DNA of 64,000 nt. It comes from Deltaproteobacteria bacterium (GTDB taxonomy: Bacteria; BMS3Abin14). The notes under the pieces were generated by a model. That model was given only the letters and a program-made list of their open reading frames with translations. It was not told the origin of the DNA and ran no database searches. Shown piece after piece: positions 8,370 to 26,668 of this stretch. The stretch covers positions 1 to 64,000 of the forward strand of contig JAADHJ010000009.1 of NCBI GenBank assembly GCA_013151915.1, given 5' to 3'. The first letter of the stretch is position 1. The number at the start of each line of letters is the position of its first letter. Made by a program: the position numbers and the translations under genes.

Positions 8370-9647
8370 ATGTCCGAAAAACAGTACCATACCGACACAA
8401 TTGCGCTTCACGGCGGCCAGGAGCCTGATGGAACAACCCTGGCCAGAGCCGTTCCCATTTACCAGACCACCTCCTATGTCTTCCGCGATTCCAAGCATGC
8501 GGCGGACCTTTTTGCGTTAAAGGAACTCGGCAATATCTACACCAGGATTATGAACCCCACCTCCGATGTTTTCGAAAAGCGGATAGCCCTTCTCGATGGA
8601 GGAGTCGGAGCTCTGGCGGTGTCCTCCGGGCAGTCAGCCACCACCCTGGCTATTTTAAACATCGCTCGAAGTGGGGACGAGATCGTCTCGGCCACCAGCC
8701 TGTACGGGGGAACGTATAACCTCTTCAGGTACACCCTCGAAAAGCTGGGAATAAAGGTTCATTTCGTGGATTCGTCCGATCCCGAGAACTTCCGGACCGC
8801 GATCAACGAGAAGACGAGGGCGGTCTACCTGGAAAGCGTGGGAAACCCGAAACTGGACGTTCCTGATTTTGAAGCTATCGCTGAGGTGGCCCACGGGGCC
8901 GGGGTCCCGGTGATCATGGACAATACGATTTCCCCCATCCTTTTCCGTCCCTTTGACCACGGAACCGACATCATCGTCTATTCGGCAACCAAATTCATCG
9001 GCGGACATGGCACATCCATTGGGGGTGTGGTAGTGGATTCCGGCAGGTTCGACTGGACCTCTGGAAGGTTCCCTGAATTTACAACGCCCGACCCCAGCTA
9101 TCACGGCCTGGTATACAGCGAGGCCCTTGGAGAACTGGCATTCATCATCAAACTCAGGGTTCAGCTCTTAAGGGATCTCGGCCCGGCCTTGAGTCCGTTT
9201 AACTCCTTCCTTTTTTTACAGGGACTCGAAACCCTCCCCTTGAGGATGGAGCGCCACAGCCGGAACGCACAGAAGGTAGCCGAGCATCTGAGCGAACACC
9301 CCAAGGTCTCCTGGGTTAACTATCCCGGGCTTCCCGGGCATCCCTCCTACGACCTGGCCAGGAAATACCTGCCCGACGGCTGCGGCGCTATCATCGGTTT
9401 CGGCATCAAGGGCGGCCTTGATGCCGGTGTTCGCTTCATCGACAATGTCAGCCTTCTTTCCCACCTGGCCAATATCGGGGATGCCAAGTCCCTTGTCATC
9501 CATCCGGCGTCCACTACCCACCAGCAGCTTTCCTCCGAGGAGCGGCTTGCCACCGGCGTTACGGACGACTTCATAAGGCTTTCTGTCGGGCTGGAGGACG
9601 TCAGGGACATCATCTATGATATCGATAGTGCGCTGGAGAAGGTCTGA
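8370..9647 (+). CDS. metY: O-acetylhomoserine sulfhydrylase
   Basis: A PLP enzyme that makes homocysteine from O-acetylhomoserine and sulfide (direct sulfhydrylation), or takes methanethiol. It belongs to the Cys/Met-metabolism fold-type I family. Visible motifs are the phosphate-binding [11 protein letters not shown] (about 85-95), the catalytic Asp in PVIMDNT (about 180-186), and the PLP lysine in [13 protein letters not shown] (Lys208). At 425 residues it has the long form typical of MetY rather than MetB/MetC. GGAAAGGAA precedes the ATG. It leads a metY-metX-metW operon (20-nt gap to metX). Confidence 0.95.
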
Positions 9648-9667
9648 GGTTATAGAGGTTTGAGCCT

Positions 9668-10858
9668 ATGAAAATATCACAGGGTAAAAGGGACCCGCCC
9701 TTCGGGGCGGTCCCGCCTGCGGACTCCGCAGGCCTGGTCAAACAACAGAGTGTTACTTTCGACGAACCCGATCACGTTCTTCGGCTGGAGTCCGGGGACA
9801 CGTTGTCCCCCATAACAGTAGCCTACGAGACCTATGGTACACTTTCCCCAAAAAGGGATAATGCCGTCATGGTCTGCCACGCCCTGTCGGGCGATGCCCA
9901 CGCGGCCGGCTACCATGGGACAGGTGAGAGTGAAAAGCCCGGCTGGTGGGACATTCTCATCGGACCAGGTAAACCGTTGGACACAGAGCGGTACTTTGTC
10001 ATCAGCAGTAACTTTCTCGGAAGCTGCTACGGTACCACCGGACCAACCAGCATCAATCCTGATACATCCCAAAGCTATGGACTCAGCTTTCCCTTCTTTA
10101 CCATCACGGACATGGTGGAGGTGCAGAGGTGGCTTCTGGACCACTTGGGTGTTGATCGTCTGTTGGCGGTCCTTGGCGGCTCGATGGGCGGCATGCAGGC
10201 GCTCCAATGGGCCATCAGTTATCCGGATCGGGTTGCGGGAACCATACCCATAGCCACGACGGCCAGGATGTCGGCCCAGGGAATCGCGTTTAACGATGTG
10301 GGAAGGCAGGCCATTCTCAGTGATTCCAAGTTCCTGGCCGGGAAATATCGGGATGACGATCCCCCATCCACCGGCCTGGCGCTGGCAAGAATGATAGGAC
10401 ACATAACCTATCTGTCCGAGGATTCCATGAACCGTAAGTTCGGCCGCAGGTTCGTCAACGGCAACAGGAAGAGTTTCTCGTTTTCCAAGGATTTTCAGGT
10501 TGAGAGCTACCTCCACTACCAGGGGGACAAGTTCGTCCAGCGTTTTGACGCAAACACCTACCTTTATATCAGCCGGGCCATGGATTATTTTGATCTTGTG
10601 GCGGACCATGGGTCATTGGAGAATGCTTTCTCCGGTTGCCGTTCCTCCTTCCTGGTGATCTCCTTCACCACTGACTGGCTCTTTCCTCCATCCCAGTCCC
10701 GGGAGATCGTCCGGGCTCTCAGGAGGGTCGGCAAGGATGTGTCCTACTGCAACATGGAAAGCGACCAGGGACACGATTCCTTCCTTCTCCCAGGGCATCG
10801 CATGGGCGATCTTGTGGCCGGATTTTTAAGGCGGCTTTCGGAAGAGAATAGATCATGA
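9668..10858 (+). CDS. metX: Homoserine O-acyltransferase (MetX)
   Basis: An alpha/beta-hydrolase that acylates homoserine, usually with acetyl-CoA, for methionine synthesis. The nucleophile elbow is GGSMGGMQALQW (Ser172). The acid and base are Asp336 (TTDWLFPP) and His369 (DQGHDSF). CHALSGDAHAAG and GSCYGTTGP are family signatures. Its partner MetY uses the acyl-homoserine product, which favours acetyl as the acyl group; the succinyl-specific variant cannot be excluded by eye. The first about 28 residues are not conserved in style. The last base-pairs overlap metW (ATGA). Confidence 0.95.
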   Translation: MKISQGKRDPPFGAVPPADSAGLVKQQSVTFDEPDHVLRLESGDTLSPITVAYETYGTLSPKRDNAVMVCHALSGDAHAAGYHGTGESEKPGWWDILIGPGKPLDTERYFVISSNFLGSCYGTTGPTSINPDTSQSYGLSFPFFTITDMVEVQRWLLDHLGVDRLLAVLGGSMGGMQALQWAISYPDRVAGTIPIATTARMSAQGIAFNDVGRQAILSDSKFLAGKYRDDDPPSTGLALARMIGHITYLSEDSMNRKFGRRFVNGNRKSFSFSKDFQVESYLHYQGDKFVQRFDANTYLYISRAMDYFDLVADHGSLENAFSGCRSSFLVISFTTDWLFPPSQSREIVRALRRVGKDVSYCNMESDQGHDSFLLPGHRMGDLVAGFLRRLSEENRS

Positions 10859-11517
10859 CCAATTCAACACCGCCTGATTCCGGCATTAACTGGAGTTTAA
10901 CCCATGTTCGGGATAGAGCTCTTGACCCGTTTATTCTTGCCTCTGTCAAGGAGGGCGACAGGGTCCTGGATCTCGGCTGCGGCGTGGGGGATCTTCTCCT
11001 TCGCATCAAGGAGGAAAAAACCGCGGTTGAAAAGGGGGTGGAGATAGAAGGTTCCCTGGCGGCCGAGGCTATCTCGAAGGGGCTTTCGGTGATACAGGGA
11101 GACATCCAGGAAAACATCCTGGACCTGGGAGATGATTCCTTCGATCTGGTAATTTTAAATCAGGTAATCCCGGTTGTTCGTGAGCCTGTCGGCGTTCTGT
11201 TGGAATCCCTCAGGGTTGGCCGGAGGGTGGTGGTCACCTTTCCGAATTTCGCATACTGGAGAACCCGGTCATACCTTTACTGGCACGGGCGTCTGCCGGT
11301 TACGCCCTCTCTCCCGTATCAGTGGTACGACACTCCGAACATCAGGCTGGTGACTATCAAGGATTTTCGGGCGTTATGTTCAGACCGGAACATAACGGTG
11401 CTCAAAGAAGGCTACATAACCCTGACAGGGGATAGATCCGCCCGTCCGATCCGGATGTGGCCCAATTTCAGGGCCTCGTCGGCCATGTTCCTCCTGGCCG
11501 CGCCCGGCCGGTCATGA
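10855..11517 (+). CDS. metW: MetW, methionine biosynthesis methyltransferase-like protein
   Basis: A class I SAM-methyltransferase-fold protein that accompanies MetX in many proteobacteria and is needed for, or stabilises, its activity. The glycine loop RVLDLGCGVGDLL is at about 36-48. The family signature TFPNFAYWRTRSYLYWHGR and the following SLPYQWYDTPNIRL are intact. The start overlaps the metX stop by 4 nt (ATGA), so translation is coupled. The next gene is convergent, 13 nt away, with no clear terminator. Confidence 0.93.
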   Translation: MTNSTPPDSGINWSLTHVRDRALDPFILASVKEGDRVLDLGCGVGDLLLRIKEEKTAVEKGVEIEGSLAAEAISKGLSVIQGDIQENILDLGDDSFDLVILNQVIPVVREPVGVLLESLRVGRRVVVTFPNFAYWRTRSYLYWHGRLPVTPSLPYQWYDTPNIRLVTIKDFRALCSDRNITVLKEGYITLTGDRSARPIRMWPNFRASSAMFLLAAPGRS

Positions 11518-22974: not shown

Positions 22975-23583
22975 TCAAGATTTAACCCCCTGTATTTTAC
23001 CACGAAGCAGCTCCAGGTCCTCGGGCGTATTGATATTTGCGAAGGGGTCTCGGCCGGCTGTACTTTTGTGCCCGATCATCGGGGAGGCAACCTTCATCCC
23101 GTCAAGAGCATCCATGACCTTCAGGCTCTTTTGTTCAAGCCGCTTGAGAAAAGGGTCCAGACACGAACGGGAATATACGGCAAAAAGAGGTTCCGGGCCT
23201 TTGGGGCCGCGGGGGACAACAGCGTCATTCCCTTTGCGGAGGGATGCTGTCTTGATGATGAGGTCCGGATCGAGAAAGGGCATGTCGCCGGCAACGGCGA
23301 AAATGAATGGAGTCTTTGACAGGCTCAGTCCGGTGTAGATTCCCCCGAGAACCCCGCTGTCCGGGATGATGTCCGGGTGGACCGTGATCTGCAACGCATC
23401 GAACTCAGGCCGGTGGTGGCCGATTACAAGTACCTCGGGGAAGATGGAGGACATCCGGCGGTGGATGTGGGCGATCAGGGGGGATCCTTCAAAGGGAAGC
23501 AGGATCTTGTCGCATCCCATTCGCAGGCTCATCCCGCCCGCCAGGACAACTCCCGTGGTATCGTCCGGAGAGCGGTTTGTCAT
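22975..23583 (-). CDS. mobA: Molybdenum cofactor guanylyltransferase
   Basis: Transfers GMP from GTP to molybdopterin to give the guanine-dinucleotide cofactor used by DMSO-reductase-family enzymes. The nucleotidyltransferase signature is VVLAGGMSLRMGCDKILLP (about 11-29), with AGDMPFLDPDLI and the C-terminal FANINTPEDLELL typical of MobA. The start is the ATG overlapping the globin-PsiE stop (ATGA); a longer frame reaching 23799 is only read-through in the shadow of that gene. Its presence implies molybdo- or tungsto-enzymes in the organism. 202 residues. Confidence 0.9.
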   Translation of the reverse strand: MTNRSPDDTTGVVLAGGMSLRMGCDKILLPFEGSPLIAHIHRRMSSIFPEVLVIGHHRPEFDALQITVHPDIIPDSGVLGGIYTGLSLSKTPFIFAVAGDMPFLDPDLIIKTASLRKGNDAVVPRGPKGPEPLFAVYSRSCLDPFLKRLEQKSLKVMDALDGMKVASPMIGHKSTAGRDPFANINTPEDLELLRGKIQGVKS

Positions 23584-24467
23584 TCCCTTTCTGCCCGGAC
23601 GACCAGCCAGTAAACGATTCCGAGGACCAACAGCGTGCCGACCTTGCTGACGAAGCTGAGCAGTTCCTCGTGCTGGAAACCGGCGATGAGAACCTTTCTG
23701 AGAAATGCGACCATGATGACCCCGACGAAGACCTTGATCTGAAGTTTTCTCCCCTTGAGGTGGGAGATCTCCGTATCGAGAAGTTCTATCATCAGCCATA
23801 TGATCAGCAGTGAACCTAGGGCGGCGATGATACTATCCGGATCGGCCTTCCGGAAGATCCCGATGACGTCCTGCGCGAACAGGGCCACAATCGCCACTGA
23901 GACCACTCCCAGCGCAAGGGCCAGGATGAGATTAAGCCCGTAGGTAAAGCGCTCTATCCAGTTTACCAGGGTTTTTTCCACCCGGAAAGAAAGGAAGTAT
24001 TTTCTCAATTCCTCCTGTCTGTAGGAACTGGTCAGGATGTCCAGGTTGATATCCAGGATTTTGCTGACGGCGATAACACCCTCTTCTCTCTTGTCCTGGG
24101 GGACGTGGGACTCGATGATCTCTGAGAGGAAGCGCCGCATCCGTGCCATGGAGGTGTTCACGAAATGGCCGTCGAGTTTGATGTTTACGTGGACCTTCCC
24201 CACGTGCCTGAGATTGCGGATGTACGAGTCGTCGTACTTGCCCCCGAATAGATCCATGAACCAGCGGGCGATGAGCTTCCTGTGCCGGTCAAGCTTCTCC
24301 TCGGTCGGGAAAAACTCGGCGGTTTCCTTATGGGACATGATGTACCCGTAAAAATCCTCGGTGAACTCCTCCTTGTGTTCCTCCATAAGAGGAGCAAGTT
24401 CCTTGAGAAGCTGTTCTTCCTCGGAGGTAAGTTCGTAGTGGGATTTGAAATCCTTCGCTGAAAGCAT
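23580..24467 (-). CDS. Protoglobin-PsiE fusion membrane protein
   Basis: Residues 1-165 form a sensor-globin/protoglobin domain: LMEEHKEEFTEDFYGYI, FFPTEEKLDRHRKLIARWF, and the proximal-histidine helix LRHVGKVHVNIKLDGHFV (His93 the likely haem ligand). Residues 175-295 contain four transmembrane helices like PsiE, ending in a cytosolic tail. By inference it is a haem-based gas (O2, NO or CO) sensor coupled to a membrane module of unknown output. It lies between a 99-aa unknown protein (3-nt gap, ribosome site inside that gene) and mobA (4-nt overlap), so the three form an operon. Confidence 0.82.
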   Translation of the reverse strand: MLSAKDFKSHYELTSEEEQLLKELAPLMEEHKEEFTEDFYGYIMSHKETAEFFPTEEKLDRHRKLIARWFMDLFGGKYDDSYIRNLRHVGKVHVNIKLDGHFVNTSMARMRRFLSEIIESHVPQDKREEGVIAVSKILDINLDILTSSYRQEELRKYFLSFRVEKTLVNWIERFTYGLNLILALALGVVSVAIVALFAQDVIGIFRKADPDSIIAALGSLLIIWLMIELLDTEISHLKGRKLQIKVFVGVIMVAFLRKVLIAGFQHEELLSFVSKVGTLLVLGIVYWLVVRAERE

Positions 24468-24470
24468 GTC

Positions 24471-24770
24471 CTATCCTTTCCCAAAAGGTGCCCGCCGGAA
24501 CCAGTGTTCCCCGATCTCCCCGACGATGAAGACCCCACGGTCATCCGTGGGGTAACCCAGCGCCTCCAGATCCTCGATGCAAGCGATGCGCAGGAGCTCT
24601 CCCATGACAGCCTTCTCATCGGAGGTCATATGGTAGAGGTGAATTTCAAGGAGGATAAAGTCCGTCTCGACCCCCACCCCCTTCTTGATGAAGAACGGAT
24701 AGCCATAGGTTTCCACCTCGTTTCCGGGGCAGTATGCAATGGGTATCTGCGAACCTGACGTGGGGGTCAA
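24471..24770 (-). CDS. Hypothetical protein, first gene of the globin-PsiE/mobA operon
   Basis: 99 residues, no signal peptide or membrane helix. Visible pieces are IAYCPGNEVETYGYPFFIKKG, read from residue 11 on in two parts, LLEIHLYHMTSDEKAVMGELL and the acidic C-terminal stretch LEALGYPTDDRGVFIVGEIG. Only two Cys are present, so no zinc site. The start is TTG with GGGAGAGG ideally placed. I do not recognise the family. It is divergent from the SAM-riboswitch gene and is followed after 3 nt by the globin-PsiE gene, so a redox or gas-sensing context is likely. Confidence 0.6.
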   Translation of the reverse strand: MTPTSGSQIPIAYCPGNEVETYGYPFFIKKGVGVETDFILLEIHLYHMTSDEKAVMGELLRIACIEDLEALGYPTDDRGVFIVGEIGEHWFRRAPFGKG

Positions 24771-24865
24771 TATCCTCTCCCTTCAGGTATTTTATCTACC
24801 ATACCGTGACGGTCATTGAAAAGCTCGGAATTATTTTCTTGACGCGCCGGTTTGGGATGTGCAAA

Positions 24866-24984
24866 CCTGACGGCTCCTTATCCAGAGTGGCGGAGGGACG
24901 GGCCCTGCGAAACCACAGCAACCGGCCATGCGTTCAGCGTGGCGACCGGTGCTAATTCCCGCAAGTTTCTTTGGGAGATGAGGC
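24866..24984 (+). promoter_or_regulatory. SAM-I (S-box) riboswitch
   Basis: The core matches the S-box consensus closely: CCTTATC, AGAG, GG, GAGGGA, GGGCCC, GAA-CC, GCAACC, and finally GGTGCTAATTCC (24948 region). The closing stem P1 is CCTTATC (24876-24882) with GATGAGG (24977-24983). GCAGGG just downstream (24985-24990) can pair with CCCTGC (25004-25009) as an antiterminator. With SAM bound, P1 forms and the terminator at 25001-25034 should be released, switching off the gene at 25082. Established for the class; here inferred from sequence. Confidence 0.93.
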
Positions 24985-25000
24985 GCAGGGTAATTCACCC

Positions 25001-25034
25001 GCCCCCTGCCTTACCCGAGGAGGGGGCTTTTTTT
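25001..25034 (+). terminator. Intrinsic terminator of the SAM riboswitch
   Basis: GCCCCCT (25001-25007) pairs with AGGGGGC (25021-25027), followed by seven Ts. Its 5' arm overlaps the segment complementary to GCAGGG upstream, giving the expected mutually exclusive antiterminator. Confidence 0.9.
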
Positions 25035-25081
25035 CTACATTTTCCCGGGAGCCGACAGATCCCTTGAACCCTGGAGAAAAA

Positions 25082-25537
25082 ATGAAAAATATCGAGATAA
25101 AAGACGCTACGAAAGAGCTGGTTATCCTGAGGGCGCTGGATCGCTACAGGCCGCCTTTCGAGGTCGTCGGGACCTACCGCCTTATTGACGACGGGGTGCG
25201 TCCCGAGGCCACGGTCATGCTGAAAGCGGGCGACCAGGAAATGCATGAGGCCGATGAGGGGGCCGGCCCTGTGGATGCGCTGGCCAAGGTCCTGAAAAAG
25301 TCCCTGGGGAGACTTTTCCCGGAGTTAAAGAAGGTCCGGCTCCTGGATTTCGCATCCAGGGTGATCCAGGGAGCTACCGGCACTTCAGCCTATGTACAGG
25401 TGGACATAGTGTTTACCGACGGCGACCTGGTCTGGAAGGTAGCCTCCTCTTCCGACAATATCAACCTGGCTTCCTTCCGGGCATTGCTGGACGGCTACGA
25501 GTACGCCATACATCTTAAGGAAGGTCCAACGGGATAA
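25082..25537 (+). CDS. Stand-alone LeuA-type regulatory (dimerisation) domain protein
   Basis: 151 residues resembling only the C-terminal allosteric domain of 2-isopropylmalate/citramalate synthases: FEVVGTYRLIDDGVRPEATV, EADEGAGPVDALAKVLKKSL, LLDFASRVIQGATGTSAYVQV (shown in part), and NINLASFRALLDGYEYAI. The catalytic TIM barrel (GVGERAGN/HxH) is absent. In LeuA this domain binds leucine for feedback inhibition. The start has GGAGA upstream; a longer frame starting inside the riboswitch is not credible. SAM-riboswitch control suggests a role near methionine, SAM or acetyl-CoA-derived amino-acid synthesis, but its partner enzyme is not in this window. Confidence 0.85.
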   Translation: MKNIEIKDATKELVILRALDRYRPPFEVVGTYRLIDDGVRPEATVMLKAGDQEMHEADEGAGPVDALAKVLKKSLGRLFPELKKVRLLDFASRVIQGATGTSAYVQVDIVFTDGDLVWKVASSSDNINLASFRALLDGYEYAIHLKEGPTG

Positions 25538-25547
25538 GGACCGGACC

Positions 25548-25675
25548 GTTCAAGGTTCAACGTTCAAGGTGATAAAGAACGTCCAACGTCCAACGTCAAA
25601 GTTCAAACGTCAAGGGTAAAAAATCCAATGTCCAATGTCCAACGTCAAGCTTCAAACATCAAACTTCAAGGATCC
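25548..25675. repeat. Short-period GTTCAAC/GTCCAAC repeat tract
   Basis: An irregular array of 6-8 bp units such as GTTCAACGTTCAAGG, GTCCAACGTCCAACGTC, GTTCAAACGTCAAGG, CCAATGTCCAATGTCCAAC and CTTCAAACATCAAACTTCAA. The same style recurs at 27719-27740, 43472-43500 and 61940-61983. It runs into the predicted N-terminus of the DHH protein. Confidence 0.75.
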
Positions 25676-26668
25676 AACGGGGTAAAGCAGCCCTGTACCC
25701 GGATTGTAACCCACGAGGACCTTGACGGCGTAGTCAGTGCCGCCATTGTCTCCCTGGCCACGGAGATAAAGCAATTCTGGTTTACAGGTCCGATGTCCAT
25801 CCAGAACGGGGAAACTCCGACCACCGAGACGGACATCGTCTGCGACCTCCCTTGCCCCATCCGATTTGGAATGTGGTTCGATCACCATGTCGGGAATCTG
25901 GCTGACGTTGAACTGAGGGGCCTGGACCCTGAAAAGATTCCGGGGAAGTTCTCCCCGGATCCTTCCTGTTCGAGGGTAGTGCTGGAATATTATCGAGGGC
26001 GTGTCGATTTTCCGCCGTTCATCGAAAAGACGGTTGCCAGGACCGACAGGGTGGACTCTTTCGACTATCAAACCATGGAAGAATGGCGGGAACCGCTTCC
26101 CGAAAAGCTTCTGGCCGATTCCATCCGTGCGGCGTTTCGAGCCCCGCGGGCGATGCACGGTTATCTCGAAAAGGTCGTGCTTTTGCTGCGTCAAGATTCC
26201 ATGGAGAAAGCATTGTCGGACCCCGAGGTTTCCAATCTCGTGAAAACCTTTGGCGACATGGAGCGGCGAAGCCTCGAGCTTGTGGAACAGGACGCCTTTT
26301 TTCATCCCGACGACGCAAGCCGGGAGGTTGTCATCGTGGATCTGACCCGCCACAATCGCAAACCGGATTTTATCCGGAACACGGCCTTTATCCGTTATCC
26401 TGACGCGTTGGCTGTTCTACTGGTCCAGAACCGGTTTTTAAGGGGGAGGAAGACCAACGATCTGACCTTTTCCATGTCACTGTCCTTCCTGATGAACGTC
26501 CGTGAGCACCGCAGGGACATCGGGGAGATCATGAGGTCGCTGAACATGGGGGATGGACACCCGGGCGCTGGGGGAGGCATGTTGTCCTGCGGAAGCAAGG
26601 ATGAGATGATAAAGGTAAAGGCGGCCACCCTGAACTCCATTATCAGGATGTGGCAGGAGATGGCGTAA
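25628..26668 (+). CDS. DHH-family phosphoesterase
   Basis: A manganese-dependent phosphohydrolase of the DHH superfamily (nanoRNase, pApA or cyclic-dinucleotide phosphodiesterase type). Motif I is VTHEDLDGVV (about 28-36), motif III MWFDHHVGN (Asp85-His86-His87), and the DHHA1-like C-terminal glycine motif NMGDGHPGAGGGML. An Asp-containing DRVDSFDY lies between. The first about 20 residues (MSNVQRQASNIKLQGSNG) are translated from the short-period repeat tract, so they are probably not ancestral; no in-frame start with a better ribosome site exists before motif I. The gyrI-like gene follows 23 nt downstream. Confidence 0.85.
   Translation: MSNVQRQASNIKLQGSNGVKQPCTRIVTHEDLDGVVSAAIVSLATEIKQFWFTGPMSIQNGETPTTETDIVCDLPCPIRFGMWFDHHVGNLADVELRGLDPEKIPGKFSPDPSCSRVVLEYYRGRVDFPPFIEKTVARTDRVDSFDYQTMEEWREPLPEKLLADSIRAAFRAPRAMHGYLEKVVLLLRQDSMEKALSDPEVSNLVKTFGDMERRSLELVEQDAFFHPDDASREVVIVDLTRHNRKPDFIRNTAFIRYPDALAVLLVQNRFLRGRKTNDLTFSMSLSFLMNVREHRRDIGEIMRSLNMGDGHPGAGGGMLSCGSKDEMIKVKAATLNSIIRMWQEMA

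Follow-up and report, generated by a model that had tools for sequence, protein, structure and literature searches.

In this study we describe a window of 64,000 nucleotides in which a SAM-I (S-box) riboswitch stands directly before a gene for a barrel-less protein related to the regulatory domain of citramalate synthase (CimA), hereafter called the orphan. The pairing of S-box and free domain is real and, as judged from sequence comparison, is best read as the outcome of an operon deletion. Comparison within a phylum sample of 12 genomes (the window genome and 11 others) makes it very probable that the riboswitch once led a homocysteine operon, and that the loss of this operon placed it before the orphan.

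The aptamer was located at positions 24875..24984 of the + strand. The initial annotation had reported an S-box with terminator and antiterminator, and the leader was confirmed as a genuine SAM-I riboswitch by its covariance-model match: Infernal aligned it with RF00162 over the full model (positions 1-108 of 108) at 72.3 bits (gathering score 44.4; E 5.7e-15). A genome-wide search found this single copy in the 2.27 Mb of the window genome. The intrinsic terminator (25001..25034, + strand) was likewise recovered, with a hairpin at 25001-25027 (GCCCCCT.GCCTTACCCGAGGAGGGGGC) of -18.7 kcal/mol followed by seven T at 25028-25034. This bulged hairpin was absent from the output of a simple terminator scanner; a homologous hairpin was found behind the aptamer in every relative, with energies from -14.8 to -22.8 kcal/mol. 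An antiterminator is plausible and modestly favoured in computed folding, in which, before the 3' arm of the terminator exists, a fold that breaks P1 was more stable than the P1 fold by 2.9 kcal/mol. The expression platform would then combine the terminator with this computed competing fold. Upstream, the sequence TTGACG (24839..24844, + strand) is a putative -35 element of the S-box promoter, CTTGAC being conserved in most of the corresponding leaders of the relatives, and the promoter scan gave it no score. The -10 sequence of the window, TGCAAA, looks weak; two relatives, G006 and G010, show an evident TATAAT 16 nt behind the -35-like site.

In the other 11 genomes SAM-I was found in seven, once in each, and always before the DUF39/HcyBio gene hcyA (PF01837). 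Behind hcyA all seven carried the UPF0280/COG2122 gene, which is cut by a contig end in G006 and has an in-frame stop in G010, and in five of the seven loci a NIL-ferredoxin gene came next; the copies of G003 and G009 are interrupted or partial. DUF39/COG1900, COG2122 and the NIL-ferredoxin form the L-aspartate semialdehyde sulfurtransferase system, which makes homocysteine from aspartate semialdehyde (PMC5764234, PMC12068725). Two relatives (G002 and G004) showed the order S-box, hcyA, UPF0280, NIL-ferredoxin (NILFer4), orphan and DHH-like gene. Two contigs of G005, one ending with the operon and the other with the orphan, have an exact overlap of 77 bp, so that operon and orphan are adjacent in this genome as well. 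In G003 the orphan and the S-box operon occupy separate, unlinked loci.

The leader of the window shares its origin with these leaders. Positions 24876-25032 were 79% identical to the hcyA leader of G002 over 162 bp (E 6e-33), and the window leader aligned with seven hcyA leaders in all, all eight of them lying beside the same small ORF and protoglobin gene. In the window these flanking genes are a small divergent ORF (24471..24770, - strand) and a protoglobin-PsiE protein recognized by Pfam (23580..24467, - strand); the homologous flank was present in the window genome, G001-G006, G009 and G010. We observed that the protoglobin is fused to a PsiE-like membrane domain and that in the relatives, too, it adjoins the S-box locus. 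On the other side of the orphan lies a DHH-like gene (25628..26668, + strand), named from its motifs (THEDLDG ... DHH) as no Pfam family passes; the DHH family reached just E 0.36, in one orthologue. It adjoined the orphan in all six genomes with an orphan and also occurred without it in G008.

What differs is the stretch in between. From the aptamer end to the orphan start there are 98 bp in the window versus 2.8 kb in G002, and the gene order of G002, G004 and G005 places the junction at 25035..25081 (+ strand), where about 2.7 kb holding hcyA, UPF0280 and NIL-ferredoxin is missing. PF01837 and UPF0280 were absent genome-wide from both the window genome and its congener G001. A search of the window and the congener's locus L057 revealed no NIL-ferredoxin-like sequence in the window, and the window held no remnant of any of the three genes, all of which are present in relatives. 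Given S-box-hcyA in seven genomes versus S-box-orphan in one, deletion is the simpler direction of change; once the roughly 2.7 kb that separated the terminator from the orphan start had gone, the next gene inherited the S-box. Since no pseudogene remnant is left, the deletion is deduced entirely from the relatives. The congener retained the orphan and lacked both SAM-I and the homocysteine genes, so more than one order of losses is conceivable. No S-box remnant was detected in the congener at E values up to 5; about 200 bp of unrelated sequence with no Rfam match (L057 7514-7720) replace the leader there.

According to this comparison, the ancestor would have carried a promoter, SAM-I, hcyA (DUF39), UPF0280/COG2122 and NIL-ferredoxin, followed by the orphan and the DHH-like gene, and the operon would have produced homocysteine from aspartate semialdehyde and sulfide. 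The window lineage appears to have lost the three homocysteine genes, so that promoter, aptamer and terminator now stand immediately in front of the orphan. Today, as the anatomy of the leader suggests, high SAM would stabilise the aptamer, the terminator would form and transcription of the orphan would presumably stop.

The orphan gene (25082..25537, + strand) starts with ATG at 25082, ends with the stop codon at 25537, is preceded by GGAG at 25073-25076 and encodes 151 amino acids. The product had been taken for a free regulatory domain of LeuA; the lack of a barrel held good, while the domain proved to be of the CimA type. Pfam revealed PF08502 (LeuA_dimer) alone, with 61 bits (cut-off 24.9; residues 8-142, model positions 4-130 of 131), and no catalytic barrel. 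The best full-length family was citramalate synthase TIGR00977, matched in its C-terminal part (positions 373-521 of 526) at 86.7 bits versus a cut-off of 450 and with no HMGL-like barrel, whereas the LeuA family match reached 27 bits or less. The AlphaFold model (pLDDT 88) showed the regulatory-domain fold, superposing on 3f6h_B with Z 14.1 and rmsd 2.4 over 120 residues. The isoleucine pocket of LiCMS, which we take to be formed by Y430, L451, Y454, I458, T464 and V468 (Zhang et al. 2009), fits the letters of the chain sequence. In the alignment its equivalents in the orphan were V64, L87, F90, V94, T101 and V105, and all six orphan species have the same or conservatively substituted residues there. 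Because these positions stay hydrophobic, we regard the orphan as a probable homodimer that binds an amino acid, and the match of the model to the isoleucine-bound CimA domain together with the conserved pocket makes a role as amino-acid sensor plausible. That it binds an aliphatic amino acid as a dimer and acts on a partner enzyme such as CimA is suggested with low confidence. It may modulate an isopropylmalate or citramalate synthase, as initially proposed. The CimA signature VGVSxNIIEASWQALVDSIEY is lost at the C-terminus of the orphan, which reads SSSDNINLASFRALLDGYEY, and for this reason its role may have changed.

The orphan was present in six species, the other five copies being 66-89% identical to that of the window. 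In the tree they formed a single clade (support 100/100), separate from the CimA sequences of their phylum. Between the window genome and its congener the dN/dS of the orphan was 0.064, the lowest of five neighbouring genes, which indicates a working gene. Across 386 genomes, a profile search revealed no clear stand-alone orphan outside the phylum, the listed matches being mostly full-length CimA frames; the short-frame matches in G090 and G060 both lie at contig ends, and a few others exist, such as one in G349. With respect to individual copies, the orphan of G002 has a Lys/Ala-rich C-terminal tail (L018 6442-6573) which the window copy lacks, and in G004 a similar Lys/Ala-rich stretch lies just behind the orphan (L058, 7677 on the - strand). 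Intergenic sequence around the orphan also contained short tandem-like repeats, at 25550-25680 of the window (CAACGTCCAACGTC) and at L058 8111-8417 (TACCTTGTACCTTG).

It must be considered what the riboswitch does in its present position. It could be a decaying relic that controls nothing of consequence: it scores below the hcyA leaders of the family, which reach 82-87 bits, its -10 sequence is weak, and the S-box has been wholly lost in the congener. However, the window retains the core aptamer positions common to all hcyA leaders as well as an intact terminator, with a G-T wobble as the difference in P1, and we consider this explanation rather unlikely.

The initial annotation implied a designed functional pairing of S-box and free domain. 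The comparison gave this no support, since the S-box descends from the homocysteine operon deleted here and stands directly before the orphan in only one of the six orphan species. The related explanation, in which selection has put the free domain under SAM control so that the orphan adjusts an enzyme of the branched-chain or aspartate-family routes (e.g. CimA) to methionine status, agrees with the preservation of aptamer core and terminator after the loss of the homocysteine genes and with the strong purifying selection on the orphan. In its favour as well, leuA, hom, lysC and cimA of the window genome lie in one gene cluster, which links the Met/Thr and Ile/Leu routes. Nevertheless, the congener has an orphan but no S-box, which means that control by SAM is not a conserved property of the orphan, and in G003 the two are unlinked. 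Moreover, the orphan lies about 270-310 bp behind the NIL-ferredoxin gene in G002 and G004, and over 270 bp behind the operon also in G005, with a promoter-like site (TGGAAA-16-TATAAT, 10/12) upstream of it in G004. In view of these gaps and this site, regulation of the orphan by SAM may be an innovation of the window lineage, and an adaptive pairing seems to us quite unlikely. We judge it equally improbable that the orphan is a free trans-acting allosteric subunit of CimA or another aspartate-family enzyme whose dose came under SAM control via the operon loss; if it were, capture of the riboswitch would have created a new methionine-to-isoleucine control link.

Two further explanations can be set aside. 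An assembly artefact joining the S-box to the wrong gene could be suspected in a draft genome of 60 contigs, but it is very improbable because the junction is internal to a contig of 65 kb, both flanks are syntenic in the congener and neither of the two assemblies holds the missing PF01837 and UPF0280 genes elsewhere. Although its sequence is that of a CimA C-terminal domain, the orphan is almost certainly not a truncated CimA or LeuA pseudogene, a candidate we rejected given the single barrel-less clade in six species, the low dN/dS, the full-length CimA and LeuA elsewhere in the genome, and the finding that no close relative has a barrel fused to its orphan, the case initially named as the sign of truncation.

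Another route to homocysteine has been retained in the window, where metYXW occupies 8370-11517. These genes had been noted near 8.4 kb as having a leader of another kind, and indeed no Rfam family matched it. A strict swap of the homocysteine genes for metX was rejected, as it is not clean: G002 and G004 have both routes. Elsewhere in the window genome (contig C28, L092 3963-14335), leuA, leuC, leuB, homoserine dehydrogenase, aspartokinase and cimA form one cluster that joins the aspartate and branched-chain routes; the names come from reading the ORFs, apart from those of the two synthases, which have PF08502 matches.

If operon deletion is the correct reading, the window offers a natural example of a riboswitch that gains a new target through deletion of its own operon, and the intact, partly lost and fully lost states can all be seen in one small phylum. 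It also serves as a caution that the present neighbour of a riboswitch need not be its selected target. The orphans, in turn, make up a conserved family of barrel-less CimA-type domains, seen solely in this phylum among the 386 genomes, which could be free allosteric subunits. We found no literature on COG1900 genes with a riboswitch or on stand-alone LeuA_dimer proteins under SAM control.

With respect to known systems, the window switch agrees with SAM-I (RF00162) in its full-length model match, its P1 to P4 core and the terminator on its 3' side, but it reads into a gene for an orphan regulatory domain and not into a methionine gene. Its leader is homologous to that of the aspartate-semialdehyde sulfurtransferase system in seven relatives, while the window genome is without DUF39 and COG2122 and the window without a NIL-ferredoxin remnant. 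The closest full-length homologue of the orphan in its own genome is the CimA of contig C28 (G000:C28), 38% identical over the domain; this CimA has a catalytic barrel, whereas the orphan has none and belongs to a separate clade. In fold and in its aliphatic pocket positions the orphan agrees with the isoleucine-bound regulatory domain of the citramalate synthase from Leptospira interrogans (3f6g/3f6h), to which it is 22% identical. The construct solved in that case was likewise the regulatory domain alone, which in the orphan is a natural stand-alone gene.
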